Source of the DNA: an uncultured bacterium
GTDB taxonomy: Bacteria > Bdellovibrionota_C > UBA2361 > JANWWW01
Assembly: GCA_938038205.1 (NCBI GenBank)
Contig: CALHSA010000017.1
Location: 1-12,694 of the forward strand
Direction of reading: 5' to 3'
DNA length: 12,694 bases
Under the pieces are notes generated by a model. It made no database searches. It was not told the origin of the DNA and worked only from the letters and a program-made list of their open reading frames with translations. Positions 1-12,694 of the stretch are shown piece after piece. Made by a program: the position numbers and the translations under genes. Position 1 is the stretch's first letter. Each line of letters begins with the position of its first letter.

Positions 1-28
1 TAAGTAAAGAATTTTAAAAAAACGCCGA

Positions 29-34
29 TATACT
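29..34 (+). promoter_or_regulatory. Probable -10 box for the first small membrane protein
   Basis: TATACT, followed by AA, lies 7 nt before the GTG start. No TTGACA-like -35 is seen 16-18 nt upstream. A transcript starting at the usual distance from this box would begin at or within a few bases of the GTG, so the mRNA would be leaderless. The same TATACTAA octamer precedes dsbD and galE. Confidence 0.55.
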
Positions 35-41
35 AAGCAAA

Positions 42-302
42 GTGGTAATTCTTTACCGGGTAAGGTTCTCAATAATAACTCTAACTATTTTAATATTGTT
101 GACGATAGCGGCCCTTAGCTTAAAGTTTGGCTGGCATTTGCCTCAATTTTTCGCCACTAATATTAACTCTGGTATTTTTGTTGACTGCTCAAATCCATTA
201 AATCACAAAAATCCAACTTGTGATAGAAGTAAACAATTTCGAAAAAATCCAGAAAAAACATTCCCTAAACGGCCTAACTTTAACGGTTTTAATTTGTATT
301 AA
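42..302 (+). CDS. Small single-pass membrane protein with an exported Cys-containing tail, unknown function
   Basis: I do not recognise this 86-residue protein. It has a short basic N-terminus, one hydrophobic segment (about residues 9-28), then a hydrophilic, lysine- and proline-rich tail. The tail holds two cysteines at 49 and 60 (CX10C). The charge pattern suggests an N-in anchor or uncleaved signal with the tail in the periplasm, where the cysteines could form a disulfide (inference). GTG is the only standard start after an in-frame TAA at 15-17, and it has no Shine-Dalgarno; a -10 box lies 7 nt upstream. It converges on dsbD with only 5 bp between the stop codons. A functional link to DsbD through its cysteines is possible but rests on position alone. 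Confidence 0.6.
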   Translation: MVILYRVRFSIITLTILILLTIAALSLKFGWHLPQFFATNINSGIFVDCSNPLNHKNPTCDRSKQFRKNPEKTFPKRPNFNGFNLY

Positions 303-307
303 GCTTA

Positions 308-2152
308 TTAATCCTCAGATAAAACCTTTCTAACAATTGATGGGGTGAGAAGTGTTGGGAGGATTACCTCTCCTTTGTTCGGAATGTAAATAACTGTAAA
401 AGGCACAGCCTTTGCCCCTCTTTTCATAAGTCCTTGAGTAACTCTCTGCTCTCCATTTGTCCAATCTGCTTTCACAAACCTAAACTTTAAGTTTTTTAGC
501 TCGTTGATTAATTCATGATCAGAGAAAACTAGGTATTTGTTAACTTTACAAGTTACGCACCATTCAGCTGTAAAATCTAAGTAATAAGGAACCCCCTCAT
601 CCCTAAGCTGTTTTAGTAAATCTTCTGAATAGTTATCCCAGACAACTCCATACTCAGATATTCCTTGTGATTCTGTGTTTTTTAAAGAAATGCTTGCAAA
701 ATAGCCGCCAACAAAAATTAAAAGAGCACTAAAAATTAACCTCCTACTAAATAATAAGCTTACTCCAGTGCCTAATAGCAGATATGCTACAAGTGATAAT
801 GATGGAGAAACTCCTTGATTTTCTAAAATCCACAGTAGCCAAAAAATCGTTAAAGCAAGAGGCAAACTAAGAATTTTTATTGAGGTTTCCATATTAGATC
901 GAATTAAATTTGTAAGTTTTTTAAGAGCCGTAAATTTAAGAGTTAAGGGGAAGAACAAACTAAAAGAGAGACCAAGAATTATAAAAACAAGCAGATTTTG
1001 CAAAAAACTTCTTTCAGAGGAAGAGATTAGTAATGTAACTAAAAAAGGAGCTCCGCAAGGAAGAGCAAGTAAGCTAATTCCAATACCAAAGAAAAAGTCA
1101 AAAAACTTAGATGATGAGTTTACTGAGATAGCGTATCCAAAAAAAGGAATGTTGAAAACTTTTAGGAAATTTAGTGTTAGAGAGAAAAGTAGAAAGTTAA
1201 TCCAAAAAACAAAAATTTTATTCTGAAGTTGGAATCCCCAACCGAGATTTTTAATCCCCTCTACGGCCCCCGAGACAAGAATTCCCATTACAGTGATAGT
1301 TAATGTTGCACCGGCTACAAAGATATATGAAGCAGTAGGTTTTAAAGATTTAAGGGCTAGTACAGGAAGGACACACGGCATAAAATTTAGAATTACTCCA
1401 GCAAGGATTGCCAATAAAACACTGTAAAGAAAAGATAGAACGTTATTTTTCTGGTAGCTTACACTCGGATAAACATAGAAATTTCCTATTTTGTAAAATT
1501 TTGCAGTATCCGAGACGAATAGAAGACCATTAGGTTTTTCGCTACTTATACGTACTGAGTTTGGTGTTTCTTGATAAATTGCCGAAGGGGGAAGATCGTA
1601 AGGGAAAAATTTAATACTACTTTCTAAACTTCTAATCTGGAGGCTTGATTCTAGAGTTAGGATGCTTAAATCAGCTGGCAGAGTACTAGTAAAATCTAAC
1701 TGATTTACCTCTTCAGTATTTTCGTAATTTGGTAAAGATTCAAGATTGAATTTAATGCTCAGTTGTTCAGGTATGCAAGTGTCAGAGCATATTAAATAAT
1801 CAAGGTTAATTAAACCGGAATTCGGTAAATTTTTAAAGTCAAAAGAGAGGACGGCAAGAAATCTCCCCTCAAGAATATAGTTTGTTATGATCTCTTTTTT
1901 TATTTCTTTTGGACCCGATAAGAGTATTGGGTAAGTTACTAGGGGTTCTTCATCTAACTCTACTATAAATTTTATGCTCTCGCCGCTATCACCTGGATTC
2001 CACCAGTACAGATGGAAATTTTGAGCTGGTAAAAATTCTAAAATGATTTTTAAATGATTACCCTGAATGATTTTTGAAGCGTTAACTTGCAAATGATCTG
2101 TGGTAAACTGGCTAAAACACAGTAGTGTGAAAAGTAAATATAGTAACCTCAC
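308..2152 (-). CDS. dsbD: DsbD/ScsB-like thiol:disulfide interchange protein
   Basis: An inner-membrane protein that passes electrons from cytoplasmic thioredoxin to periplasmic thiol proteins. All three expected parts are visible in 614 residues. Residues 1 to about 18 are a signal peptide. A periplasmic N-terminal domain to about 235 carries YWWNPGDSG (49-57) and the cysteine pair C122/C126 (CSDTC). A polytopic core (about 240-490) holds NFMPCVLPVLALK with C260, and LALPCGAPF with C366. A C-terminal thioredoxin domain (about 505-614) has DFTAEWCVTC with C532/C535 and a cis-proline-like AVPF near 584. All redox cysteines of the family are present, so it should be active. The GTG start lies 6 nt after a TATACT box shared with ung, and there is no Shine-Dalgarno. 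It ends in tandem TAA TAA. The N-terminal domain resembles ScsB-type proteins, so the partner may differ from E. coli DsbC. Confidence 0.9.
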   Translation of the reverse strand: MRLLYLLFTLLCFSQFTTDHLQVNASKIIQGNHLKIILEFLPAQNFHLYWWNPGDSGESIKFIVELDEEPLVTYPILLSGPKEIKKEIITNYILEGRFLAVLSFDFKNLPNSGLINLDYLICSDTCIPEQLSIKFNLESLPNYENTEEVNQLDFTSTLPADLSILTLESSLQIRSLESSIKFFPYDLPPSAIYQETPNSVRISSEKPNGLLFVSDTAKFYKIGNFYVYPSVSYQKNNVLSFLYSVLLAILAGVILNFMPCVLPVLALKSLKPTASYIFVAGATLTITVMGILVSGAVEGIKNLGWGFQLQNKIFVFWINFLLFSLTLNFLKVFNIPFFGYAISVNSSSKFFDFFFGIGISLLALPCGAPFLVTLLISSSERSFLQNLLVFIILGLSFSLFFPLTLKFTALKKLTNLIRSNMETSIKILSLPLALTIFWLLWILENQGVSPSLSLVAYLLLGTGVSLLFSRRLIFSALLIFVGGYFASISLKNTESQGISEYGVVWDNYSEDLLKQLRDEGVPYYLDFTAEWCVTCKVNKYLVFSDHELINELKNLKFRFVKADWTNGEQRVTQGLMKRGAKAVPFTVIYIPNKGEVILPTLLTPSIVRKVLSED

Positions 2153-2158
2153 AATGTT

Positions 2159-2164
2159 AGTATA
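2159..2164 (-). promoter_or_regulatory. -10 box of dsbD, overlapping the ung -10
   Basis: On the minus strand this reads TATACT, followed by AA and 4 more nt before the dsbD GTG, a 6-nt gap in all. Four of its bases (TATA, 2161-2164) also form the start of the plus-strand ung -10 box. No -35 is recognisable. Confidence 0.6.
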
Positions 2165-2166
2165 AT
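2161..2166 (+). promoter_or_regulatory. Consensus -10 box of ung
   Basis: A perfect TATAAT sits 9 nt before the ung ATG in a 23-bp divergent gap. Initiation 6-8 nt downstream would give a leader of 0-3 nt. It overlaps the dsbD -10 by TATA, so the two promoters should compete for, or alternate use of, one melted site (inference). Confidence 0.65.
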
Positions 2167-2175
2167 TTTATTCTT

Positions 2176-2862
2176 ATGTTATTAGAATCTAGCGCTGAGT
2201 CTCTTACATGGGCCGATGTTATTGGTGAAGAGAAAGATAAGGAGTATTTTAAAAACTTAATGAAAACAATCCTTGATGAGGAGAAATTTTACACAATCTA
2301 TCCTCCACGGAAGGATAGATTCATGGCTTTCAAGTTAACTCCCTTTGAAAAAGTTAAAGTGGTTATTCTTGGTCAGGACCCTTACATAAACCCTGGACAA
2401 GCACATGGCCTTTGTTTCTCTGTACCTAAAGGTGTGCCGTTACCCCCTTCCCTTAGAAACATCTATAAGGAGATAGAATCTGATATCGGGTGTAAAATGG
2501 ATTACTCTAATGGAGATTTGACTCATTGGGCGAAGCAAGGTGTACTTTTGCTTAACTCAATCTTGACCGTTAGAAAAGGAGAGCCAGCTTCCCATAAACA
2601 TATTGGATGGGAACAATTTACTGATACGGTTCTTTATAAATTAAGCTTACTAAAAAGAAATCTTGTTTTTATACTTTGGGGGTCTTTTGCTTGGCGAAAA
2701 GAAACTGTGCTTAAAAACATTGAGTCTCATTTAATTCTCAAAGCGAATCATCCTAGTCCACTTTCAGCATCAAAAGGTTTTTTTGGTTGTAAACACTTCT
2801 CAAAAACAAATTTATATTTAACTAACCACGGTTTCGAGGGAATTAATTGGCAGAATATTTAA
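2176..2862 (+). CDS. ung: Uracil-DNA glycosylase, family 1
   Basis: Removes uracil from DNA as the first step of base-excision repair. At 228 residues it is full length. It carries GQDPY at 66-70, with D68 as the water-activating residue and Y70 blocking thymine. GLCFSVP at 78-84 includes the uracil-stacking Phe. LLLNSILTVRKGEPASH (124-140) has the uracil-reading Asn127. HPSPLSA at 192-198 has His192 and the minor-groove loop. These are the family 1 signatures, so the assignment is secure. ATG is the first start after the promoter, with no ribosome binding site. It is divergent from dsbD and followed by a small + strand gene with its own -10 box. Confidence 0.96.
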   Translation: MLLESSAESLTWADVIGEEKDKEYFKNLMKTILDEEKFYTIYPPRKDRFMAFKLTPFEKVKVVILGQDPYINPGQAHGLCFSVPKGVPLPPSLRNIYKEIESDIGCKMDYSNGDLTHWAKQGVLLLNSILTVRKGEPASHKHIGWEQFTDTVLYKLSLLKRNLVFILWGSFAWRKETVLKNIESHLILKANHPSPLSASKGFFGCKHFSKTNLYLTNHGFEGINWQNI

Positions 2863-2954
2863 GGCGTGAACAATGATTCACTTAAAATTTACATTTAATC
2901 AAGCTCTTTTTTTTACTTCTTAGGGCTTAAAAAGAAAGATTTTAAGATTTCGGG

Positions 2955-2960
2955 TATAAT
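2955..2960 (+). promoter_or_regulatory. Consensus -10 box of the 59-codon gene
   Basis: TATAAT followed by AA, 13 nt before an ATG. No -35 is evident. This is the main non-coding signal in the 111-bp gap after ung. The rest of that gap is AT-rich with a T8 run (2907-2914) and no convincing terminator. Confidence 0.55.
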
Positions 2961-2973
2961 AACCTTTATAAAA

Positions 2974-3153
2974 ATGACCGAGAAAAAGACGAAAAAGACG
3001 AAAGGTGCTGAGTGTAAGCTTCCAGAGGGTTATTTGAATGTTGGAAACACGGTTATCATTATTGAGAAAGAGGATCCATATAAGGAGTTTATTGATCATA
3101 TTAAAAGAAATGGTAACACTAATTATTTGAGGAATATTTCTAGAGAAAGTTAA
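2974..3153 (+). CDS. Small lysine-rich hypothetical protein (59 aa)
   Basis: A short frame from ATG to TAA, not recognised. The product begins MTEKKTKKTKGAECKLPEGY, a basic N-terminus encoded partly by a perfect 9-nt tandem repeat. A mixed-charge region with VIIIEKEDPYKEF and IDHIKRNG follows. It has no membrane segment and one cysteine. Support for a real gene comes from a perfect TATAAT 13 nt upstream, the same start architecture as its neighbours. In addition, its TAA interlocks with the pdxH TAA inside one TTAA, as also seen at the 5376-5379 junction. It could be a small nucleic-acid-binding or ribosome-associated protein given the Lys-rich head, but that is only a guess. Confidence 0.55.
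   Translation: MTEKKTKKTKGAECKLPEGYLNVGNTVIIIEKEDPYKEFIDHIKRNGNTNYLRNISRES
2982..2999 (+). repeat. 9-nt perfect tandem repeat in the 59-codon gene
   Basis: GAAAAAGAC occurs twice in tandem, followed by a partial third copy (GAAAGG). In frame it encodes repeated Lys-Lys-Thr, so length changes of one unit keep the frame. It probably arose by slippage. Confidence 0.7.
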
Positions 3154-3812
3154 GGATACAGTTCTTTTATATACCATTTCCTACCGCTCTTTTTATACAA
3201 GAATCTTCTGTGCAGTCTTTCAGTGCTTCCAAACCAGAACTCAAACTTTTGTGGTTTAATCTCGTAACCGCACCAGTGAGCAGGGGTTGGTACTAACTTA
3301 ATTTTTTTTATGTATTTTTGGAACTTGTTTTTTAGATCGTACCAGCTATCTAATACTTTTGATTGTTTAGAAAGAGATAATGCAAGCTGAGATTCAAGGG
3401 GTCTGAGAGAGAAATACTCAACACAAATTTTCCTTGGGAGCTTGGAAACAAATCCATGAACTCTAATTTGAACACTTATTGTTGGCCAGTAGAAAACTAA
3501 GCTAGCTCGTGGTTTTCTTTTTAATTCTTTGACTTTCTGTGAGTGTTTGTTAGTAAAAAAATAGAAAGACTTATCAATCGATTTGATCAAAACCATTCGT
3601 CCGTTTGGCCCGTCAGTGCAGAGAGTTGCAGCGTTTGGTTCAGGCTCAGTTTTGATAGCTTTCTTAAATAAGAAATTAAAAAAAACAAAGGGATTTTTCT
3701 TTGGTTTTATCTCACTTAAAACGTTTAATGTTAAATACTTAGGCTTCAGATTGGGAATATATTTACTTTTTCGAACCCTTGGATCCACTCTATTTTTGGA
3801 AGAACTTCCCAT
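3150..3812 (-). CDS. pdxH: Pyridoxamine/pyridoxine 5'-phosphate oxidase
   Basis: An FMN enzyme that oxidises pyridoxine or pyridoxamine phosphate to pyridoxal 5'-phosphate. It has 220 residues, close to E. coli PdxH. Visible motifs are PNAATL (59-64), RMVLIK (72-77), FYFFTN (83-88), FYWP (107-110), RPLESQ (137-142), SKQS (148-151), and C-terminal HWCGYE...FEFWFG...RLH (179-201) ending in KELYP. Active-site R199 and H201 of RLH are kept. Odd points: the usual SQ-x-G-A-W reads SQLALSL, EFWQG reads EFWFG, RLHDR reads RLHRR, and the loop before RMVLIK is short. The start lies inside yraN. ATG 3812 is used here, GTG 3788 is the only near alternative, and both overlap yraN. No Shine-Dalgarno is present. 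It is last of a four-gene run and shares a TTAA stop with the convergent small gene. Confidence 0.88.
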   Translation of the reverse strand: MGSSSKNRVDPRVRKSKYIPNLKPKYLTLNVLSEIKPKKNPFVFFNFLFKKAIKTEPEPNAATLCTDGPNGRMVLIKSIDKSFYFFTNKHSQKVKELKRKPRASLVFYWPTISVQIRVHGFVSKLPRKICVEYFSLRPLESQLALSLSKQSKVLDSWYDLKNKFQKYIKKIKLVPTPAHWCGYEIKPQKFEFWFGSTERLHRRFLYKKSGRKWYIKELYP

Positions 3813-4120
3813 TTTATTACAAACAGATCAAGCCTAACATATTCAGGATAAAGACTGCAGGATAAAACAACTGAACGAAGTTTCTTTCTAAGCGCTTTTA
3901 GTTGTTTATCTTTTAAAAGCTCCCAAGGTTGCTTGTTTGAAGTCACTCCCTTAACTTCAACTGCAACAAGCTCCTTGCCATCAAAAATTAGAATATCAAG
4001 ATCTCCTTTTATACTTTTTGCTCTCCATCTTATGATTACGCATCCTAGTACTAGAAAATAAATAATTGCTACAAGCTCAGTAATTAAGCCAAGGGAGGAT
4101 TTATATGAGATTTTTCCCAC
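3746..4120 (-). CDS. yraN: YraN/UPF0102 family protein with endonuclease-like fold
   Basis: A small PD-(D/E)XK-type nuclease-fold family, widespread in bacteria and often next to rnhB, as here. The exact substrate is not established. In 124 residues the fold's elements are visible: Glu15 in the first helix (GLITELVAII), an RWRAKSIKGDLDIL segment with D42, and VAVEVKG with E55-V56-K57. A Lys-rich helix (KDKQLKALRKKL) and RLDLFVIKW at 96-104 follow. GTG is the only standard start in frame after a TAA 9 nt upstream, so a 37-nt overlap with the 3' end of rnhB is forced. An AAGG abuts the GTG with zero spacing, too close for a working Shine-Dalgarno. Its own 3' end overlaps pdxH by 67 nt. Confidence 0.85.
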   Translation of the reverse strand: MGKISYKSSLGLITELVAIIYFLVLGCVIIRWRAKSIKGDLDILIFDGKELVAVEVKGVTSNKQPWELLKDKQLKALRKKLRSVVLSCSLYPEYVRLDLFVIKWEVLPKIEWIQGFEKVNIFPI

Positions 4121-4692
4121 CCTTGTTTAATCGTTTGTGTTAATACAGGATAAACCAATCGGAAAGTTTTTCTATGAAAAATCGTTGCACCAGACTTAGA
4201 TAATTCTTGCTGATGCAATTTTGTAGGATACCCTTTGTGAATATCTAACCTGAACTCGGGAAACTTTTCCATCATTGAACTTACAAGGGAATCTCTTAGC
4301 ACCTTTGCTATCACTGAGGCAGCCATGACCGCGTGATATTTACAATCCGCTTTGGGTTCAGCAACAATATTGAAATCAAAACTTGGTTTATACGGCCCAT
4401 CAACGAAGTAATAATCAGCCTTTAGTTTTTGAATACATTTTTTAAAGCCGTACATAGTTGCTTGAAGAATGTTGAATTTATCTATCCTCCGTGGGCCAAT
4501 TGCAACAACATAGTAATCAACTGCTAGATTAATTACCTTAAAAAAAATGTTAACTCGACTGTTTGAGTTTAGCTTTTTTGAATCATTCAAACCAGGCAAC
4601 CGTAGGTTAAGTGGTAATACACAACCTGCAACAACCACAGGCCCAAATAGAGAACCCCTTCCTGCCTCGTCTAATCCACAAACAAGCTTCAT
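4084..4692 (-). CDS. rnhB: Ribonuclease HII
   Basis: Cleaves RNA in RNA-DNA hybrids and excises single ribonucleotides misincorporated in DNA. It has 202 residues. GLDEAGRGSLFGPVVVAG at 6-23 supplies the catalytic D8/E9. NDSKKL at 36-41, VDG with D98, AASVIAKVLRD with D134, and the C-terminal HKGYPTKLHQQEL (152-164) with HRKTF (173-177) complete the RNase HII pattern. The ATG overlaps the upstream gene's stop by 4 nt (ATGA), which suggests translational coupling, yet no Shine-Dalgarno precedes it. The last 20 or so residues (after YP) extend past the conserved core and are coded in the stretch that overlaps yraN. Confidence 0.95.
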   Translation of the reverse strand: MKLVCGLDEAGRGSLFGPVVVAGCVLPLNLRLPGLNDSKKLNSNSRVNIFFKVINLAVDYYVVAIGPRRIDKFNILQATMYGFKKCIQKLKADYYFVDGPYKPSFDFNIVAEPKADCKYHAVMAASVIAKVLRDSLVSSMMEKFPEFRLDIHKGYPTKLHQQELSKSGATIFHRKTFRLVYPVLTQTIKQGWEKSHINPPLA

Positions 4693-4979
4693 ATGTTTAC
4701 AGCTTTAAAAACTAGGTCTATTACAAAAAAAGCAGGAATGATGTACAGAATCCGAAATAGGTGCGTTAAAGCTGGGTCTAAACGATGCAAATAATCAGCA
4801 ATTAAAGGGGTGAGGTAGATATCTAAAATCCAACAACAAAAAAAAACCAATAGAGAGATCAAAAAATTTTTTAAATGAAGTTTTAAAGTATATAAATCAC
4901 CGAATGAGGAGACCAAAGAAAACAAATAAATTATCGCTGGAATTCCCCAAATAAATTTAACAATTAGTTCAAAAAACAC
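4689..4979 (-). CDS. Small polytopic membrane protein, unknown function
   Basis: A 96-residue hydrophobic protein I do not recognise. Three membrane segments are likely: about 5-25 (FIWGIPAIIYLFSLVSSF), 37-60 (FLISLLVFFCCWILDIYL) and 74-94 (FRILYIIPAFFVIDLVFKA). The short loops between them include LYTLKLHLKN and ADYLHRLDPALTH. It heads the run with rnhB, yraN and pdxH and is ATGA-coupled to rnhB. The GTG start lies 9 nt after a TAGAAT box in a 40-bp divergent gap, so the run's mRNA should start at or near this codon. An AAGG directly abuts the GTG but has no spacing. The context does not indicate a function. Confidence 0.6.
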   Translation of the reverse strand: MFFELIVKFIWGIPAIIYLFSLVSSFGDLYTLKLHLKNFLISLLVFFCCWILDIYLTPLIADYLHRLDPALTHLFRILYIIPAFFVIDLVFKAVNI

Positions 4980-4988
4980 CCTTGCTTT

Positions 4989-4994
4989 ATTCTA
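4989..4994 (-). promoter_or_regulatory. -10 box of the membrane protein-rnhB-yraN-pdxH run
   Basis: Minus strand TAGAAT followed by AA, ending 9 nt before the GTG. It matches five of six consensus bases and is in register with the other near-start -10 boxes. It is the only good -10 candidate for this run in the 40-bp gap. Confidence 0.5.
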
Positions 4995-5019
4995 CTTATG
5001 TGGTAACCTGTAAAAAAGG

Positions 5020-5379
5020 GTGGATTTGTTTAGATTTTTTGTGCCCTTTATGGATCCGGCTTGTTTATCCTCCCCCTTAACTAAGGTAGAACTGGAAGAG
5101 CTTTATGAGTTAGTTTGTACCCTAAGAAGGTCCTTAGATATGCAGTGTCGTAGGAATAAATCTCTTGATAAACGAACAGTTGATCAGGAGAAATTAGAGT
5201 CATTAACAAAGGCAATTAAATATTCTGAAGAACTTTTAAAGCAATTAGTTGCTTCTCATCCAGGTGATTCAGTTGAAGATATCAAATTATTACTTCAAAG
5301 AGTAAAGAAAATCCCTGGTGCTGATGAGTTTTTACGAGAAATTTCTGGCAAACTGGTGCAACTGAAAAAGGCAGTTTAA
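5020..5379 (+). CDS. Helical soluble hypothetical protein
   Basis: 119 residues, not recognised. After a hydrophobic N-terminus (MDLFRFFVPFMDPACL) the protein is highly charged and probably all helical: KVELEELYELVCTLRRSL (22-39), LESLTKAIKYSEELLKQLV (59-77) and EDIKLLLQRVKKI (86-98). A HPGDS turn sits near 79-83. Short coiled coils are plausible. The start is uncertain. GTG 5020 has a weak TGGTAACCT extended -10 (5001-5009) ten nt upstream. GTG 5041 or ATG 5050 would follow a TAGATT (5030-5035) and remove the hydrophobic head. No Shine-Dalgarno fits any of them. It stands alone on the + strand, divergent from the rnhB run, and its TAA interlocks with the gcvT TAA in one TTAA. Confidence 0.6.
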   Translation: MDLFRFFVPFMDPACLSSPLTKVELEELYELVCTLRRSLDMQCRRNKSLDKRTVDQEKLESLTKAIKYSEELLKQLVASHPGDSVEDIKLLLQRVKKIPGADEFLREISGKLVQLKKAV

Positions 5380-6401
5380 AAGCAATTAATCTGTTTTTTT
5401 AGGGTTTGTTTTGTAATCAGCTTAATTTTACATTTTTTATCTCTAATATTAATGAACAAATCGTTATCAGTTCTTTTTATCCTGCAAAATCCTATAGGAA
5501 GCTTTAAACAGGGTGTTTTATAACCTGAAGTTACAAATCCCACTGTTCCCCCTGATATGTCAACAACTTCCAAGCCTTTACGAGGGACACCTCCAAATTC
5601 TTCTAAAATAAATAAACGCAAATCCCAATTTTTGCTCATTTTATGTTTACCTATGAATTCTTTGGAAAAGTCAACTTTAGAGGCTAGACCTGATTCTAAC
5701 GGCGAGAAACTCTCGCTCAATTCATTTCCGTACAAAGTTAAGCCAGCTTCTAGTCGTAAAGTATCTCGAGCTATTAATCCACATAAATGATACCCATAAG
5801 AGATTGTTTTTCTTATGATATCTTTAGCAAGATCAACAGAATGTAAAAATATTTCATAGCTTAATTCTCCACTATACCCTGTTTGACTTATGAAAAGGAT
5901 ATCGTTTGATAATGGTTCTACGCTATTTTTTGAGCTTGGACAAGGCAATCCCAAATTTTTCATTAAAACGTTCGCATGAGGTCCTTGAATCACAAGAACT
6001 ACAGGTTGAATGATTTTAAACTCTACCTGATGATACTCAAAATACTTTGGCAAAACATCTTTATTACAAGCATTTCCAACAAAATAAATGTTGTTACTTA
6101 AGTACAACATTCCATCCTCAACTATTCCCCCTGAATCATTCAAAAGAATTAAATACTGACTTGAGTTCCATAATGAAAAATCTGTTTTGAAAGGTGTTAA
6201 ATAATCAATTTTCGATAATGCTTCAGAATTTAAACAATAAACCCTAAGGTGGCTAATATCCGCGATGGTTGCTAAGGTGCGAGTAAGTTTGTGCTCTTGT
6301 ATACAATTGGTGTACTCTAAAACCACCTTAAACCCCTCAAACTCTCCATATTTAGGATTGTAGCTTTCAAGAAACTCTGTTAACTGGAGTTTTATTCCCA
6401 T
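5376..6401 (-). CDS. gcvT: Glycine cleavage system T-protein-like aminomethyltransferase
   Basis: In the family, GcvT moves the aminomethyl carbon from lipoyl-GcvH to tetrahydrofolate, giving 5,10-methylene-THF and ammonia. The 341 residues show FEGFKVVLEY (21-30), ADISHL (47-52, usually FDVSHM), and SGGIVEDGM (90-98) with the expected catalytic Asp96. Also visible are IQGPHA, TGYSGELSYEIF (174-185), ARDTLRLEAGLTLYGNEL (211-228), FIGKH (249-253), PRKG and TSGYKTP. The ARDTLRLEAG block and the retained Asp favour GcvT over the YgfZ paralogue, whose KGCYxGQE motif is absent. It is shorter than the usual ~365 residues, mainly at the N-terminus. ATG is needed to keep FEGF, which forces a 35-nt overlap with folD. 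No gcvH or gcvP is in the window. Confidence 0.85.
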   Translation of the reverse strand: MGIKLQLTEFLESYNPKYGEFEGFKVVLEYTNCIQEHKLTRTLATIADISHLRVYCLNSEALSKIDYLTPFKTDFSLWNSSQYLILLNDSGGIVEDGMLYLSNNIYFVGNACNKDVLPKYFEYHQVEFKIIQPVVLVIQGPHANVLMKNLGLPCPSSKNSVEPLSNDILFISQTGYSGELSYEIFLHSVDLAKDIIRKTISYGYHLCGLIARDTLRLEAGLTLYGNELSESFSPLESGLASKVDFSKEFIGKHKMSKNWDLRLFILEEFGGVPRKGLEVVDISGGTVGFVTSGYKTPCLKLPIGFCRIKRTDNDLFINIRDKKCKIKLITKQTLKKQINCF

Positions 6402-7269
6402 TTTTAAAAGCTGTAAATGTGTTCTCTAATAAACTTTGTACAGTCATTGGTCCTACACCACCAGGAACTGGAGTAAATGCAAGTAGTTGCTCTGATTCCA
6501 CAATTAAATCCCCCATTAATTTTCCATTCTCAAGCCTTATACCAACATCGATGACTATTGCTCCGGAGCGAAAAACTTTCGAGCTTGTACGCGGTCCCGC
6601 TCCGGTTGCAAGAATAACTATATCAGCATCTTTCAAATATCTAATTGTATCACCTGTTTTTGAGTGGCACACTGTTACTGTAGCATTCCTTTGAAGCAAA
6701 ATCTCAGCCATTGGTCTTCCAACTAGATTACTTCGGCCTACAATTACAGCATGTAGACCTGATAAATCTGAGGCCGGAGGAAATGGCTCATATTTTCCGA
6801 TTTTTTTTAAATGAAAAACTAAATCAATCAAATTAATACATGCTAAAGGAGTACAGGGAAAGTATCTCGGATTTTGTGTAAACAGTAAACCTTGATTCGA
6901 AGAGGTTAAACAATCAACATCTTTGATTGGACTAATCAAATCAATAACTTTTTTTTTGTCTAAATGTTGTGGAATAGGTAGTTGCAAAATCATAGCGTCG
7001 CAAAGATTGTCTTGATTTATTTTAATTATTTCGTCTTTAAGTTTTTCAAAATCTACAGTTTCATCTAAGTTCAAATATTTGGCTATTATACCAACACGAT
7101 GACAAGCCTCTATTTTGCGACTTATATAAATAGAAGAGGCTTTTTTTTTACCTACCTGAATTATTGTTATGCATGGCCTGTTACTCTCCCCGGGATCGTA
7201 ATGACAAAGCAGTTCTTTTAAGTGAAGCTCTCTTAGAAAAGCGAAAAGTTTCCCATCTAATCTAAGCAT
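6367..7269 (-). CDS. folD: Bifunctional methylene-THF dehydrogenase/methenyl-THF cyclohydrolase
   Basis: Interconverts 5,10-methylene-THF, methenyl-THF and 10-formyl-THF, supplying one-carbon units for purines and formyl-Met-tRNA. It has 300 residues. YISRK at 48-52 gives the catalytic Tyr48/Lys52 pair. LQLPIPQH (96-102), KDVD (116-119), PCTP (138-141; the next residue is usually Gly or a similar small one), GRSNLVGRPMA (178-188) and TVCHSKT (199-205) for NADP follow. IDVGI and PVPGGVGPMT (267-276) complete the set. An insertion around KYEPFPPASD (159-168) precedes the Rossmann loop. The ATG overlaps the upstream unknown gene by 13 nt and has no Shine-Dalgarno. Its substrate is the product of the next gene, gcvT, so the pair forms a small folate unit at the end of a mixed operon. 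Confidence 0.95.
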   Translation of the reverse strand: MLRLDGKLFAFLRELHLKELLCHYDPGESNRPCITIIQVGKKKASSIYISRKIEACHRVGIIAKYLNLDETVDFEKLKDEIIKINQDNLCDAMILQLPIPQHLDKKKVIDLISPIKDVDCLTSSNQGLLFTQNPRYFPCTPLACINLIDLVFHLKKIGKYEPFPPASDLSGLHAVIVGRSNLVGRPMAEILLQRNATVTVCHSKTGDTIRYLKDADIVILATGAGPRTSSKVFRSGAIVIDVGIRLENGKLMGDLIVESEQLLAFTPVPGGVGPMTVQSLLENTFTAFKNGNKTPVNRVS

Positions 7270-7805
7270 AAAAGCTCTTTAAAAAAAAGACGAAGGAAAT
7301 CGAATGATGATAATCTAGGCAATTCTAAAAGTACGGGCGATTGATACTCAAAATATCTAAGTCGGGATTGTAAGTAGGTTTTTTTCACTGCCAATGAAAA
7401 ATCAAGGGGATTTTTCGGGATTTTTTGTTTAATTCCTTTGAGCAAAATCAGATCTGGCCTAATTCCAAAGCATAAACTAAAAGGATCCTTTAATTTTATT
7501 TTTGAGAAAAAACTCATATAACTGCAACTCACATAATATCCTCTGAGATTAAAAGCAAAAATCCAATTATAATCCAACCGTTTCGAAATTAAATCAAGAT
7601 TAACTAAATAATAGGCATCAAGAAAAAATGATATTCTGTGAATAATTTCACTCGGTACAGTTTGATCTATAAAAATAATTTTACTGTAATTAATTTTTCT
7701 TGAAAGAAGTTCTTCCAAAAATTGATCGTTAAAAATTGTTGTTTCAAAATTATCTAGGTTTAAAAAAAATTCAGTTTCATTAAACTTAACTATGAGATTT
7801 TTCAC
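7257..7805 (-). CDS. Hypothetical protein between the GT-C gene and folD
   Basis: 182 residues, not recognised. No signal peptide or clear membrane helix. It is rich in Phe, Tyr, Leu and Ile with alternating short strands and helices. Fragments such as YSKIIFIDQTVPSEIIHRIS and YNWIFAFNLRGYYVSCSY look like beta-alpha units, and the C-terminus (FDFLRLFFKELLCLD) looks helical. It may be a soluble alpha/beta protein, but no motif supports a function. GTG overlaps the end of the GT-C gene by 20 nt, and the 3' end overlaps folD by 13 nt. Continuous overlap with conserved genes on both sides is the main evidence that it is translated. Confidence 0.6.
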   Translation of the reverse strand: MKNLIVKFNETEFFLNLDNFETTIFNDQFLEELLSRKINYSKIIFIDQTVPSEIIHRISFFLDAYYLVNLDLISKRLDYNWIFAFNLRGYYVSCSYMSFFSKIKLKDPFSLCFGIRPDLILLKGIKQKIPKNPLDFSLAVKKTYLQSRLRYFEYQSPVLLELPRLSSFDFLRLFFKELLCLD

Positions 7806-8793
7806 AGTAATAATGCCATATTACGCCTACTAACCCACACAAAAATATAGCAAGGAAATATTGGTCTAAAGGATACTTATGGAATAAGAAAAAAGCTGAT
7901 ACTGGTAGCAGGAAACCTAAATACGATACCCGGTTCTGAATTATCATTGCAAACAAAGTGATCAAGTACACTATTACTCCTGGGTGTAAATATTTGGGCA
8001 AAAAGTAACTTATATAGGGCACTGCAAATTTTAAAAATAACTCCACTCCTTCTCTGCCGATATGAAATAAAGTAGTGTAGTACAAAGTTGCCTTGGCGTC
8101 GGTTATGAGCATAGGTAAATAAAAAGTTGCAACAACAGCTGAAAAAACCAGTACACCTTGTAAAGTTTTTCTAAAGCCAAACACTCTATAAAAGTAAAAA
8201 ACATAAGCAGGGATTATAAAAATGAAAGTTTGCTTGAAGGATATGCTTAGTCCCAAGAAAACAAAAGCTATACTGTGCAGTTTTGATCGGATAAATAGAA
8301 AGCCAGTTAAAAGAAGAGAGAGGGATAAAATATCGAGCTGCTCAAAACTTTTCTTCAAAAATAATCGGTGGGATATTAAACCAAATCCTAACACTACCGA
8401 TGATAGCACCGGACTTTCGATCTCATGTTTTTTCAAAATTACATAAAAGAAGTAACTTAAAAGAATAGCCAAATAAACTCTATTCAACCACGAAACTTTG
8501 TACCAAACTTTAAGAAACTCAAAAAAATCAGAAGACCCAGAAATTTTATCCAGAAAGGCTATGAAGATGTACCCTAAAGGAAAATAGGGGGGAGCTTTCT
8601 CCGTTTTTTTCTCTTTATTATTTTCAGAGAAAACAGAGTAAGGGTTTTTAAACTCCTGTATATGTTTTGAATGGGTGTAAATTACTCCCAAATCACTAGC
8701 AAGACTCCACTTTCGCTGATATTGGTCAGTAAAAACACGATAAATAACGACTATAGCTAGAACGCCAAGAAACAACTGCCTAAACGTAATCAT
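7786..8793 (-). CDS. Polytopic GT-C-like glycosyltransferase (GT87/DUF2029-like)
   Basis: An integral membrane protein of 335 residues with about nine hydrophobic segments and the layout of GT-C transferases, which use lipid-phosphate sugars. After the first membrane helix comes a periplasmic loop with SDLGVIYTHSKHIQ (Asp34), KNPY (49-52) and APPYFPLGY (67-75). That matches the D...Y...NPY...PP pattern of GT87-type enzymes. FEQLD (150-154) resembles the common GQxD helix start. SISFKQTF (183-190) and HKYPLDQYF (305-313) match other family landmarks. Donor and acceptor cannot be read from sequence. ATG 8793 is preferred; a TTG seven codons upstream would deepen the overlap with the preceding gene. 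Downstream of galE and another membrane protein, it probably acts in envelope glycan or glycolipid assembly (inference). Confidence 0.65.
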   Translation of the reverse strand: MITFRQLFLGVLAIVVIYRVFTDQYQRKWSLASDLGVIYTHSKHIQEFKNPYSVFSENNKEKKTEKAPPYFPLGYIFIAFLDKISGSSDFFEFLKVWYKVSWLNRVYLAILLSYFFYVILKKHEIESPVLSSVVLGFGLISHRLFLKKSFEQLDILSLSLLLTGFLFIRSKLHSIAFVFLGLSISFKQTFIFIIPAYVFYFYRVFGFRKTLQGVLVFSAVVATFYLPMLITDAKATLYYTTLFHIGREGVELFLKFAVPYISYFLPKYLHPGVIVYLITLFAMIIQNRVSYLGFLLPVSAFFLFHKYPLDQYFLAIFLCGLVGVIWHYYCEKSHS

Positions 8794-9631
8794 GCTTTTT
8801 GCCCAAGTGATCAAAAATTAAAATCATAAGAGAAAAAAGTGGATAAACTCCGGAGGGATCGAATTTAAACAAAAAAGTGCAAACTAAAAAGGATTTAAAA
8901 AAAGAAAGCTTGCTAGAGTTAATGAAAGGAACGCTCAAAACTAGAATAATTTCTAATATTCCAAGTTTATCCAACGAATTTAAAAGTTGAGTTTGATTCA
9001 GAGCAAAAATATAAAAAGAAAAAATTAACAGCAAGCTAAGAAAAGAACTTAAAACAATTGATTTACTTTCAGTGACTAATGTTTTTGAGAGGAAGAAGAT
9101 AAAACTTAATAGTGGATTTAAAAGTCCTGCTATTAAGTAGCACAAAAAACTTTTTTCTTGACTGAAAAGAAAGAGGAGTGAGAATGCAAGTAAAGAGTAT
9201 GGTTCAAAAATAATCAGGGCCAAGCTCGGATTAGATAACACTATAAATAACGTAATGGCGAATTTTAAAGGGAGATTATTAATTCTAGAAGTTATATTTA
9301 CGAATAAAATTGAGCTAAAAATAAAGCTTACAAACGTTAAAAAATAAACGAGAAGTTTTTTTGTTTTTTCATGATAGATTTTTGCCAGAAACCAATTCTC
9401 AAAAGGCTTGCTTTTGCCATCTTTTTTAAAGTCTTTTTTTAAAAAATTTTGTGTTAACGCCTTTTTTCGTATTTCGTTTAAACGTGCGATTATTCCTGGA
9501 TTCTGAACGCGCGCTTCTATCGCCTCAGGAGTATATTTTTTTGCAAAATTAGAGGGCAAACTTGAGATTAAGTAAATTTGAGATAAAAAGAAAATTAAGA
9601 ATAGGATTAATTTTTCAAAGTTCAAGAACAC
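8780..9631 (-). CDS. Polytopic membrane protein, possibly a GT-C partner
   Basis: About 283 residues with roughly eight hydrophobic segments and no motif I recognise. TM1 (about 5-24) is followed by a strongly basic loop (about 26-74) containing KKYTPEAIEARVQNPG and LKKDFKKDGK. The remaining helices are tightly packed (LLVYFLTFVSFIFSSILFV, then a second group). A late FKFDPSGVYPLF may be a conserved loop. GTG 9631 starts one base after the galE stop; a TTG at 9643 would overlap galE by 11 nt. There is no Shine-Dalgarno. It overlaps the next gene, a GT-C-like protein. Joint membrane topology and coupling suggest the two work together, for example as transferase and accessory or flippase subunit, but this is context only. 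Confidence 0.55.
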   Translation of the reverse strand: MFLNFEKLILFLIFFLSQIYLISSLPSNFAKKYTPEAIEARVQNPGIIARLNEIRKKALTQNFLKKDFKKDGKSKPFENWFLAKIYHEKTKKLLVYFLTFVSFIFSSILFVNITSRINNLPLKFAITLFIVLSNPSLALIIFEPYSLLAFSLLFLFSQEKSFLCYLIAGLLNPLLSFIFFLSKTLVTESKSIVLSSFLSLLLIFSFYIFALNQTQLLNSLDKLGILEIILVLSVPFINSSKLSFFKSFLVCTFLFKFDPSGVYPLFSLMILIFDHLGKKHDYV

Positions 9632-9632
9632 G

Positions 9633-10613
9633 TTAACTATCAAAGTCTGGGTAACCTGTGGGCTTGCTTTTGTGAAATTGTAGAGCTGATTTCAGAATGT
9701 CAGATAAAGTAAACGAGGGGCTCCAGTTAAGTAAATCTTTTGCTTTTTGAATATCAGCCACTAAAAACGGCACATCGCCTGGTCTTTTTGCTGAAACCTC
9801 AATTTTTAGCTTTCGTTGTAAAATAGTTTCTAACTCTGAGATAACTTGTTTCACTGAAAAACCGGTCCCTGCCCCAAGATTTATTACCTCAAATCTAGCA
9901 TCACTTTTTTTAAGAAACTCTAAGGCAAGAATATGAGCAGCTGCTAGGTCTTCAACGTGAATAAAATCCCGAACACACGTGCCATCAGCAGTTTCCCAAT
10001 CATCACCGAAGATAACGAACCTTTCTGTTTGTCCCAAAGCAAATTTACATAGTAAAGGAATTAGATGAGTTTCCGGAGAGTGATCTTCTCCGAACTTGCC
10101 ATCTGCTGATGCTCCTGCAGCATTAAAGTATCTCAAGCATATTGCTCTTATTTTGTTTTTATCAAGAGCTAGATGCTCAATCAAACTTTCTGCTGCAGCT
10201 TTTGTAGCTCCGTAAACACTAGAGGGCCCTAGATAATCTGACTCTTTCAGAGGATGGTTCTTAGGCTTGTAAACTGCAGCTGAACTGGAGTAAATCACAA
10301 CTGAATCTTGGGGAATTTTATCTAAGAAGTTTGCAAGCTTAAAAACATTCTCATGCCAATATAACCATGGATTATCCATAGATTCATCAACCCGGATTTT
10401 TCCTGCTAGAAGTATGAAATAATTAAAACCGCTTAAGAACTCTTCAGAAACTTCTCCGTAATCAATGTGATGTAGTTTTATTTCAGTAAATAATGCGGCC
10501 CTATGACCTGAGGATAAATTATCTAAGACCTCAACCTGATAACCTTTTGAATGTAAACCTCTAGCTACAAAAGAACCAATATACCCAGCTCCTCCGACAC
10601 ATAGAATCTTCAT
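9633..10613 (-). CDS. galE: UDP-glucose 4-epimerase-like protein
   Basis: An extended short-chain dehydrogenase that interconverts UDP-glucose and UDP-galactose, or the N-acetyl forms, using bound NAD. It has 326 residues. GGAGYIG (7-13) binds NAD and VLDNLSSGH (29-37) follows. LAGKIRVDES (69-78) sits where GalE has its A-x-K-x-V-x-E-S block. YSSSAAVY (108-115) and YGATK (Tyr134, Lys138) are catalytic. RYFNAAGA (161-168), GTCVRDFIHVEDLA (211-224) and RPGD (277-280) are GalE signatures. Specificity for glucose versus GlcNAc cannot be set by eye. The ATG lies 16 nt from a -10 shared with pyrH. As first gene of a run with membrane and GT-C-like proteins, it most likely feeds cell-surface polysaccharide rather than galactose catabolism (inference). 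Confidence 0.92.
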   Translation of the reverse strand: MKILCVGGAGYIGSFVARGLHSKGYQVEVLDNLSSGHRAALFTEIKLHHIDYGEVSEEFLSGFNYFILLAGKIRVDESMDNPWLYWHENVFKLANFLDKIPQDSVVIYSSSAAVYKPKNHPLKESDYLGPSSVYGATKAAAESLIEHLALDKNKIRAICLRYFNAAGASADGKFGEDHSPETHLIPLLCKFALGQTERFVIFGDDWETADGTCVRDFIHVEDLAAAHILALEFLKKSDARFEVINLGAGTGFSVKQVISELETILQRKLKIEVSAKRPGDVPFLVADIQKAKDLLNWSPSFTLSDILKSALQFHKSKPTGYPDFDS

Positions 10614-10629
10614 TCTCTAAAGCGCATTT

Positions 10630-10635
10630 AGTATA
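10630..10635 (-). promoter_or_regulatory. -10 box of galE, overlapping the pyrH -10
   Basis: Minus strand TATACT followed by AA, 16 nt before the galE ATG. It shares TATA (10632-10635) with the plus-strand TATAAC. The local sequence TTAGTATAACTAA is close to palindromic, and both ATGs lie exactly 16 nt from their respective -10. Confidence 0.55.
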
Positions 10636-10637
10636 AC
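10632..10637 (+). promoter_or_regulatory. -10 box of pyrH
   Basis: TATAAC, 16 nt before the pyrH ATG, within a 40-bp divergent gap with galE. No Shine-Dalgarno is present in the roughly 10-nt leader this implies. This is the same arrangement as dsbD/ung. Confidence 0.5.
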
Positions 10638-10653
10638 TAATTAACGCGTTTGC

Positions 10654-11355
10654 ATGAAGTATAACAGAGTTCTTATTAAAATTTCAGGAGAAATTTTAAA
10701 AGGAAGTCAAGGTTTTGGTTTTGATTTCGATTTTATTCAGAGCTTAGCAGAGGAGATAAAAGAGTCCCACTTGTTGGGGGTTGAGCTGGCTATTGTTGTA
10801 GGTGGTGGCAATATAGTGCGTGGTAATACTTTAGAAAGTAATGGAATCGATCGGGCTACGGCTGATTATATGGGTATGTTAGCCACAGTTATGAACGGAT
10901 TGGCTTTACAGAGTGTATTTGAAAAAAATGGCTTATATACTCGTGTAATGTCAGCTATCGAAATGAATAAAATATGCGAACCTTACATTAGAAGGAGGGC
11001 TATACGCCATTTGGAGAAGAAGAGAATTGTTATTTTTACAGCTGGAACAGGGAATCCGTTTTTTACAACTGACACAGCGGCCGCTCTCAGAGCGACGGAG
11101 ATTGAGGCACAAATTATGATTAAAGGAACAAAAGTGGATGGCATTTTTTCAGCAGATCCTAGTTCTGAAAGTAGCTATAAGCTGGATACTGTTAGTTACT
11201 TAGATTGCGTCAAACAAGGATTAAGGGTAATGGATTTAACAGCTGTTACATTGAGCATGGATTATAGTTTGCCAGTGGCTGTTATAAATCTCACTGAGAA
11301 GGGTAATTTAATTAAGTTTTTAAAAGGAGAAAAGGTTGGAAGCCTGATTACTTGA
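10654..11355 (+). CDS. pyrH: UMP kinase
   Basis: Phosphorylates UMP to UDP for pyrimidine nucleotide synthesis; the bacterial enzyme is a hexamer of the amino-acid-kinase fold. The 233 residues show KISGEILKG (9-17) with the phosphate-binding Lys9, VVGGGNIVRG (48-57), and DRATADYMGMLATVMNGLAL (66-85) for UMP. TGNPFFTTDTAAALRA (131-146) and IKGTKVDGIFSADP (155-168) for ATP follow, with RVMDLTAVTL near the end. All family landmarks are intact. It is the first gene of pyrH-frr-uppS-cdsA. In many bacteria rpsB-tsf precede pyrH; here galE diverges instead, so pyrH has acquired its own promoter. It ends in TGA. Confidence 0.97.
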   Translation: MKYNRVLIKISGEILKGSQGFGFDFDFIQSLAEEIKESHLLGVELAIVVGGGNIVRGNTLESNGIDRATADYMGMLATVMNGLALQSVFEKNGLYTRVMSAIEMNKICEPYIRRRAIRHLEKKRIVIFTAGTGNPFFTTDTAAALRATEIEAQIMIKGTKVDGIFSADPSSESSYKLDTVSYLDCVKQGLRVMDLTAVTLSMDYSLPVAVINLTEKGNLIKFLKGEKVGSLIT

Positions 11356-11372
11356 TTAAAAATTTTCTTCTC

Positions 11373-11383
11373 TAATATTATAT
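11373..11383 (+). promoter_or_regulatory. Possible -10 region directly before frr
   Basis: TAATATTATAT contains overlapping -10-like hexamers (TAATAT, TATTAT and TTATAT), ending 9-14 nt before the frr ATG in the 37-bp pyrH-frr gap. It fits the near-start -10 pattern of the window and would give frr a separate leaderless start. It could also be chance in AT-rich sequence. Confidence 0.35.
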
Positions 11384-11392
11384 CGCTTATTA

Positions 11393-11938
11393 ATGGAGAG
11401 TGAGCAGATTAAGAAACTTAAAGAAAAATGTCAGAAAGCTGAAGAGTACTTTTTATCATCTCTAAAAAAATTAAGAACAGGGAGAGCCAATTCAGCTTTA
11501 ATTGAAGACATTTCGGTTAATTATTATGGCACGCAAACCCCAATAAAAAAACTAGCTCACATATCAGTTGCTGATCCTAGAACTTTGATGGTCCAAGCAT
11601 TTGATCATCAGGCGGCGGTTGAGATAGATAATGCAATTAGGTCTAGTGGCTTGGGTCTTAATCCTCAAAGAGATGGTTTAATATTGAGAATCCCTCTCCC
11701 CCCTATGACTGAAGAAAGAAGGAAAGAATTATTTAAAAAAGCAGCTAAATTAACTGAAGAAGCAAAAGTCGAAGTAAGAAGATTTCGAAAAGAAGCACTT
11801 GCAGAAATTAAAGAGTTGATCCCTGGTGAAGACGACAGGAAAAGATTAGAGAAGGAGGTTCAGAAAATTATAGAGGAGTTTGAAAGGCGATTCGATGAAG
11901 AGCTAAAGAAGAAAGAGAAGGAGATCTTTGAGGTATGA
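11393..11938 (+). CDS. frr: Ribosome recycling factor
   Basis: With EF-G, splits the post-termination ribosome so that subunits can be reused. At 181 residues it is close to the usual 185. KLRTGRANSALIEDISVNYYGTQTP (26-50) contains the conserved LRTGRA stretch and hinge region. LAHISVADPRTLMVQ follows, then RIPLPPMTEERRKEL (101-115) and the long charged helices (KKAAKLTEEAKVEVRRFRKE and onward) of the three-helix bundle. ATG is well supported by alignment and has no Shine-Dalgarno. Its last codons overlap uppS as ATGA, so uppS translation is probably coupled. Confidence 0.97.
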   Translation: MESEQIKKLKEKCQKAEEYFLSSLKKLRTGRANSALIEDISVNYYGTQTPIKKLAHISVADPRTLMVQAFDHQAAVEIDNAIRSSGLGLNPQRDGLILRIPLPPMTEERRKELFKKAAKLTEEAKVEVRRFRKEALAEIKELIPGEDDRKRLEKEVQKIIEEFERRFDEELKKKEKEIFEV

Positions 11939-12639
11939 ATCCGAATCATGTTGGAATAATAATGGACGGAAATGGCAGGTGGGCTACAGAGAGAGGTTTA
12001 GAGAGATTTGAGGGACACAAGAGAGGGCTAGAAACTTTAAAATCTACTGTTGATTTGGCTCTTAAACACAATATTCCTCACATTTCATTTTTTGTTTTTT
12101 CAACAGAGAATTTTTTTAGGCCTGCTAAAGAAGTAAATTTTCTCATGGATTTACTTAAGCAGGCTTTTTTTTCATATATAGATGAGTGTGTAAGTAGAGG
12201 AATAAAGATTAAAGTCGTAGGGAATTTATCACTCTTAGAGGATGATATACAAAGATTGTGTAAAACAGCTGAAGAGAAAACCAAGTATTGTAACAACTTA
12301 AAAGCTTATTTTGCAGTTGCATACGGAGGTAGAAGAGAGATTGTAGATGCGGTGAATAAGATTTTAGCATCTCAAGTGAAAAGTGTTTCGGAAGAATCTT
12401 TTAGACAGTATCTTTATTGTCCAGAGATGCCGGATATCGATCTTTTAATAAGAACCGGAAAGGAGAAGAGAATATCCAACTACTTTTTATGGCAGATTCA
12501 GTATTCAGAGATTTTTTTTAGTGAAAAATATTGGCCAGATTTTGATGAAGATGAGTTGGTTAATGCAATAAATTTTTTTAAAACTAGAGAACGGAGATTC
12601 GGACGGGTGATGGACAACTTTGCAAATGTAAAAAACTAG
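11935..12639 (+). CDS. uppS: Isoprenyl transferase (undecaprenyl diphosphate synthase family)
   Basis: A cis-prenyltransferase making undecaprenyl diphosphate, the lipid carrier for peptidoglycan and surface glycans. It has 234 residues. HVGIIMDGNGRWA (5-17) has the Mg-binding Asp11. RFEGHKRGLETL (24-35) and FSTENFFRP (54-62) match the family, as does the C-terminal DIDLLIRTGKEKRISNYFLWQ, where the family has RTGGE. YSEIFFSEKYWPDF and RERRFG complete it. The only point of note is the Lys in place of the second Gly after RTG. Coupled to frr by ATGA. A GAGG lies 1 nt before the start and an AAGGAG about 12 nt before it; neither is at good Shine-Dalgarno spacing, and both fall in frr coding. Followed one base after its TAG by a probable cdsA. 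Confidence 0.95.
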   Translation: MNPNHVGIIMDGNGRWATERGLERFEGHKRGLETLKSTVDLALKHNIPHISFFVFSTENFFRPAKEVNFLMDLLKQAFFSYIDECVSRGIKIKVVGNLSLLEDDIQRLCKTAEEKTKYCNNLKAYFAVAYGGRREIVDAVNKILASQVKSVSEESFRQYLYCPEMPDIDLLIRTGKEKRISNYFLWQIQYSEIFFSEKYWPDFDEDELVNAINFFKTRERRFGRVMDNFANVKN

Positions 12640-12640
12640 C

Positions 12641-12694
12641 TTGTTTAAGAGAATTTTCGTAGGAGCTCTTTTAATAATCTTACTTTTTTCCTTG
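12641..12694 (+). CDS. cdsA: Start of probable phosphatidate cytidylyltransferase (partial)
   Basis: Eighteen codons from a TTG one base after the uppS stop, cut off by the window end. The residues (MFKRIFVGALLIILLFSL) are a short basic head followed by a hydrophobic helix, as at the N-terminus of CdsA. CdsA makes CDP-diacylglycerol from phosphatidic acid and CTP. The call relies mostly on the conserved uppS-cdsA order; the visible piece alone cannot prove it. TTG is the only standard start in this frame near the junction, and no Shine-Dalgarno precedes it. Confidence 0.6.
   Translation, partial: MFKRIFVGALLIILLFSL

Follow-up and report, generated by a model that had tools for sequence, protein, structure and literature searches.

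Locus organization

The window is the stretch of 12,694 nucleotides analysed here, and it makes up an entire contig (C17) of assembly G000, which comprises 1,218,238 bases in 46 contigs and is 81% complete. Its 17–18 genes include two reverse-strand operons, one running from ORF96 to pdxH and the other from galE to gcvT, the divergent pairs dsbD/ung and galE/pyrH, and frr followed by uppS (Table 1). The product of dsbD has DsbD_N and Thioredoxin_7 domains.

A preliminary description of this DNA held that none of its genes has a convincing Shine-Dalgarno (SD) site and that genes opening a transcription unit have a −10 hexamer next to the start codon instead. The former applies to all starts but one, the exception being uppS, in which AAGGAG ends 11 nt 5′ of the ATG and lies within the last part of frr. 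At every other start in the window, the 4-mers AGGA, GGAG and GAGG are absent from the SD zone and anti-SD duplex energies are weaker than −3.3 kcal/mol. The −10 boxes that had been listed are all present at the spacings reported for them, and TATTAT before frr is an addition to that list. The boxes of galE and pyrH, with gaps of 16 nt, imply leaders of ~10 nt rather than 0, and no convincing −10 was found for another unit opener, the 119-aa ORF (5020, +).

All nine internal starts in the window (rnhB, UPF0102, pdxH, ORF287, the GT-C gene, ORF182, folD, gcvT and uppS) overlap the gene before them. In the ORF96 operon, the overlap with the preceding gene measures 4 nt for rnhB (start at 4692), 37 nt for UPF0102 (4120) and 67 nt for pdxH (3812), and none of these starts has an SD; the internal starts of the galE operon likewise overlap and lack an SD. 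The window alone is too small to be proof against chance, and it is the genome-wide counts that carry the case.

Table 1. Features of the window, and of other G000 contigs (prefixed C), referred to in the text.
Feature	Position	Strand	Gene served (start)	Gap to start (nt)	Basis or remark
−10 box TATACT	29..34	+	86-aa ORF (GTG at 42)	7	sequence
−10 box TATACT	2159..2164	−	dsbD (GTG at 2152)	6	sequence
−10 box TATAAT	2161..2166	+	ung (ATG at 2176)	9	sequence
−10 box TATAAT	2955..2960	+	59-codon ORF (ATG at 2974)	13	sequence
−10 box TAGAAT	4989..4994	−	ORF96-rnhB-UPF0102-pdxH run (GTG at 4979)	9	sequence
Operon ORF96-rnhB-UPF0102-pdxH	3150..4979	−			domain matches, sequence
Operon galE-ORF287-GT-C gene-ORF182-folD-gcvT	5376..10613	−			domain matches, sequence
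−10 box TATACT	10630..10635	−	galE (ATG at 10613)	16	sequence
−10 box TATAAC	10632..10637	+	pyrH (ATG at 10654)	16	sequence
−10 box TATTAT	11376..11381	+	frr (ATG at 11393)	11	sequence
uppS, 4-nt overlap (ATGA) with frr	11935..12639	+			sequence
RRM-bS18 ORF	C27:11205-11750	−			locus L247:1498-2046; homologues L248-L276
Textbook-SD genes (groEL, groES, rplQ, rpmA, cox3, fliN, flgG)	C20:1649, 1973; C20:17599	−; +			
Textbook-SD genes, remaining sites	C31:3496; C3:48787; C16:31557; C28:5653	+; −; −; −			

Genome sample and gene set

Usable G000 sequence amounts to 1.15 Mb at 34.9% G+C, with contig C1 (64.7 kb, all N) left out, and our own dicodon-model calls gave ~1150 genes and a coding share of 91%. 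Start signals were counted mainly in an unambiguous-start set, consisting of genes in which at least 75 nt separate the first possible start codon from the next one, which limits start-call bias. This set holds 382 genes, 178 of them unit-opening and 204 operon-internal, the latter defined by a same-strand neighbour no more than 20 nt away. Background values come from dinucleotide shuffles, of which 200 were used for TATAAT counts. G000 and its sister genus, G001, represent two genera in one family of a candidate phylum; G001 was sampled over 0.44 Mb, and the control samples (E. coli, a D. deserti plasmid and SAR86) are small. The class referred to in comparisons is the whole phylum sample of 45 genomes.

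Shine-Dalgarno use across the genome and its relatives

A genome-wide tabulation of SD sites, set beforehand as a check on what the window suggested, returned a low SD fraction. SD 4-mers occur in the SD zone of 10/178 unit-opening genes versus 9.2 ± 2.6 in shuffled sequence, and of 30/204 operon-internal genes versus 22.4 ± 4.3, a slight excess of 1.8 sd. Anti-SD duplex energies in G000 equal, or lie barely above, the shuffled values. By the same 4-mer test, annotated genes of E. coli score 62–70% versus a background of 2–5% and the D. deserti plasmid scores 38–47%, while in SAR86, which is AT-rich (36% G+C), SD 4-mers are found at 50% of starts. The sister genus resembles G000 in this respect: among orthologues with conserved starts, the SD share of opening genes is 5% in both genera, and that of internal genes is 20% in G000 and 7% in G001.

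Across the class, SD use was expressed as the count of AAGGAG-N5-9-ATG relative to that of the reversed pattern. This ratio is 0.98 in G000 and 1.06 in G001, and ~1.15–3.3 in most of the class. Since class members at only 30–31% G+C (G034 and G028) retain an SD excess, the loss of SD is a lineage trait rather than an effect of base composition. A second family, f15 (G019 and G025), also has a ratio of ~1, in view of which SD loss may extend past the G000/G001 family.

SD use in G000 is not zero, however. The near-universal lack of SD sites that had been proposed holds genome-wide and in the sister genus, with 4-mers near background, except that ~2% of G000 genes retain a textbook SD. Among 520 genes with unambiguous starts, 10 have a complete, well-spaced SD hexamer versus 2.7 expected from shuffles, and the strong-SD list includes groES, groEL, rpmA, rplQ, cox3, fliN and flgG, names assigned by reading the sequences. 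It is because of this excess, and of the presence of groES, groEL, rpmA and rplQ among the matches, that the residue is regarded as real; over all G000 genes, strong SDs number 30 and show no excess over a coding-sequence control (27).

Start-adjacent −10 boxes

A −10 box was scored as TATAAT with at most one mismatch at a gap of 4–16 nt from the start codon. Such boxes precede 100 of the 178 opening genes versus 48.4 ± 5.4 in shuffles (maximum of 62 in 200 runs), a background that is high (27% of opening genes) since −10-like hexamers are common by chance in DNA of 35% G+C. The signal is specific to this class of gene, for internal genes show no excess (36/204 versus 32.6 ± 5.1). An EM search with no position prior recovered the motif TA[AT]A[AC]T with a log-likelihood of 94.5 versus 20–41 for shuffled sequence. 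Most of its weight falls at gaps of 6–11 nt and part of it at 14–28 nt, and it is accompanied by an extended −10 G and, ~17 nt upstream, a T-rich patch, both of them weak. At the usual distance from −10 box to transcription start site (TSS), a gap of 6–11 nt would leave leaders of ~0–5 nt, and it is plausible that most TSSs lie within 10 nt of start codons.

Leaderless initiation, which had been proposed from the window’s start-adjacent boxes, in this way gains support for many opening genes, though not for every one. By the strict motif, boxes are estimated at 23–57% of eligible genes, that is, those with an upstream neighbour more than 20 nt away (more than 10 nt in divergent pairs), and at 3–12% of genes with an upstream same-strand gene within 20 nt. 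The same analysis gave no start-adjacent −10 signal in E. coli. In G001, a box occurs at 42% of 38 opening genes versus 16–18% at control positions, a weaker signal than in G000. Co-conservation of strict-motif boxes between G000 and G001 orthologues did not go beyond chance, and a start-codon bias within the −10 class (few TTG) was not significant (p = 0.12). In AT-rich genomes, whole-genome counts of TATAAT-N-ATG carried too much noise to reveal leaderless starts in relatives.

Divergent pairs and compaction

Divergent genes in this family are closely packed. The median distance between their start codons is 53 nt in G000 and 52 nt in G001, as compared with 148 nt in pooled class relatives, 220–257 nt in E. 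coli and 228 nt in SAR86 (four pairs only). Spacers as compact as these leave little room for SD-bearing leaders. The window contributes two examples, dsbD/ung and galE/pyrH, with 23 and 40 nt between start codons, respectively, and −10 boxes that overlap head-to-head. A single nearly palindromic sequence in each spacer, AGTATAAT or AGTATAACT, accommodates the overlapping −10 boxes of the two directions. From the positions of these boxes, the divergent TSSs of the two pairs are expected to lie ~21 bp apart. The arrangement recurs in the genome: among divergent pairs with starts 16–80 nt apart, 31 have a −10 on both sides versus ~4.5 expected, and outside the window 10 clear pairs have overlapping head-to-head boxes versus ~1.5 expected.

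Bidirectional promoters with a symmetrical −10 are known (PMC10268837, citing Warman 2021); their divergent TSSs lie 7–25 bp apart, usually 18. Like these promoters, those of G000 have two head-to-head −10 boxes that overlap within a few bp. They differ in output, however. The second RNA of enteric bidirectional promoters is often non-coding, whereas in G000 mRNAs are predicted both ways, with start codons down to 23 nt apart.

Operon-internal starts

Same-strand neighbours in G000 are a median of 1 nt apart, and 346 of 729 such pairs overlap or touch, 111 of them by exactly 4 nt. EM and k-mer searches upstream of internal starts found no SD-like or other localised motif above shuffles, and local mRNA structure around G000 starts did not differ from that of shuffled sequence. 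Internal genes have a mild excess of A at −3 to −1. Because nearly all internal starts overlap or abut the upstream gene, SD-less internal cistrons would most likely be translated through coupled re-initiation.

Ribosomal components

The 16S gene is absent from both family assemblies. In ten class relatives its 3′ end is GGATCACCTCC throughout, which contains CCTCC, and the anti-SD is probably intact in the G000 family as well, because ~2% of genes keep classical SDs. G000 encodes bS1 (six S1 domains), IF1, IF3, bS21 and bS18, and no strong SD precedes its rpsU. The bS21 gene (C14:24329-24667, +) specifies an acidic N-terminal extension of ~45 residues, similar to that in G001 (locus L228). 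The genes of the S10/spc/alpha/str ribosomal operons are spread apart over contigs C8, C19, C20, C26, C27 and C29, which suggests that these operons are broken up in G000.

In a single ORF, bS18 carries an N-terminal RNA-recognition motif (RRM), with matches in G000 of 1.5e-18 to RRM_1 and 9.4e-20 to Ribosomal_S18. At least 38 of the 45 phylum genomes carry this fusion, and its RNP1 residues are invariant across 22 aligned members. An RRRKKLDPF segment before the S18 core, conserved elsewhere, is lost in the G000/G001 family. No solved chain combining an RRM with S18 was present among the best 60 chains, the closest ribosomal RRM being that of chloroplast cS22, and a literature search on the fusion found no paper. 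Because SD-using members carry RRM-bS18 too, the fusion alone does not explain the loss of SD. It could nonetheless be imagined as a phylum-wide pre-adaptation completed in the G000/G001 family, in which the RRM, placed by bS18 on the platform of the 30S subunit close to the 16S 3′ end, would bind mRNA and replace SD recognition at leaderless and coupled internal starts, a proposal that we hold to be quite improbable.

Interpretation and alternatives

The reading that we consider probable is that the family largely gave up SD-led initiation, with leaderless translation of opening genes, coupled translation of internal genes and a classical SD on ~2% of genes. Many unit-opening genes would be served by sigma-70-type promoters with a −10 of TA[AT]A[AC]T ending ~6–11 nt before the start codon, and the resulting mRNAs, with leaders of 0–5 nt, would be translated as leaderless messages. 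At internal genes, terminating ribosomes would re-initiate without an SD through coupling. The lack of SD, the placement of −10 boxes at opening genes only and the closeness of divergent starts are read from the sequence itself; TSS positions, leaderless translation, coupling and the state of the anti-SD are inferences. One alternative is leadered but SD-independent translation as in Bacteroidia, with AT-rich, unstructured leaders of ~10–30 nt, an anti-SD hidden by the ribosome and −10 boxes that are merely close to start codons. The lack of SD, the presence of bS1, bS21 and bS18, the mild A enrichment before internal genes (−3 to −1), and the −10 weight at gaps of 14–28 nt, together with the 16-nt gaps of galE and pyrH, are all consistent with such a scheme. 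It is nevertheless unlikely, as the −10 peak at 6–11 nt allows a leader of only 0–5 nt, the promoter motif is TATAAT-like, some genes use strong SDs, rpsU has none, unlike in many Flavobacteriales, and structure in start regions is no weaker than in shuffles.

An AT-rich base composition could by itself enrich DNA in TATAAT-like hexamers and deplete it of G-rich SDs, and the chance background of 48/178 opening genes is in keeping with this. An artefact of that kind is extremely unlikely, however, since the −10 count surpasses all 200 dinucleotide shuffles, and in opening genes only, while G034 and G028 keep their SD excess at 30–31% G+C and SAR86 its SD 4-mers at half of starts. Alternatively, the 16S 3′ end might have lost or changed its anti-SD, with another, unrecognised motif in use. 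The missing 16S of both family assemblies would permit this, but the uniform GGATCACCTCC of ten class relatives, the strong canonical SDs on ~2% of genes and the failure of EM and k-mer searches to find another localised motif before internal starts make it very unlikely.

Comparison with known systems

Leaderless, or “TA-led”, genes exceed 20% in Actinobacteria and Deinococcus-Thermus (Zheng 2011, PMC3160421), and account for ~30% of ORFs in the latter (Zhong 2025, PMC12340547). The G000 genes resemble them in having a TANNNT-type −10 mostly ~6–7 to 12 bp before the start, a weak −35 and a place at the head of transcription units. In Deinococcus-Thermus and Actinobacteria, however, many other genes have a clear SD motif, both motifs being present in D. 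radiodurans (PMC12340547), whereas the other genes of G000 lack one and SD occurs on ~2% only. The host differs as well, as the lineage is AT-rich, DsbD-bearing and labelled Deltaproteobacteria in GenBank. The preliminary description had called a Gram-negative host of this type less expected; the pattern is genome-wide and recurs in the sister genus.

Bacteroidia, for example Flavobacterium johnsoniae, likewise have mRNAs nearly free of SD and, as is probable for G000, an intact anti-SD (PMC9976891, PMC6847099). In their type of SD-blind ribosome, pocket residues of bS21, bS18 and bS6, such as bS21 Tyr54, hold the 16S tail. G000 differs from them in that its −10 boxes abut start codons and its strong SDs are found on groES, groEL, rpmA and others, not on rpsU.

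Implications

The pattern in G000 is known leaderless expression in an altered form, in which the SD is nearly gone inside operons too. Known leaderless-rich bacteria keep the SD on many genes, and a start-adjacent −10 is not a hallmark of those SD-less bacteria that have been studied best. Gene finders that expect an SD will misplace starts in genomes of this kind. For SD-independent binding of mRNA, RRM-bS18 is a concrete ribosomal candidate. A lineage that combines start-adjacent promoters with almost no SD allows tests both of how SD-less internal starts work and of how the SD came to be lost.
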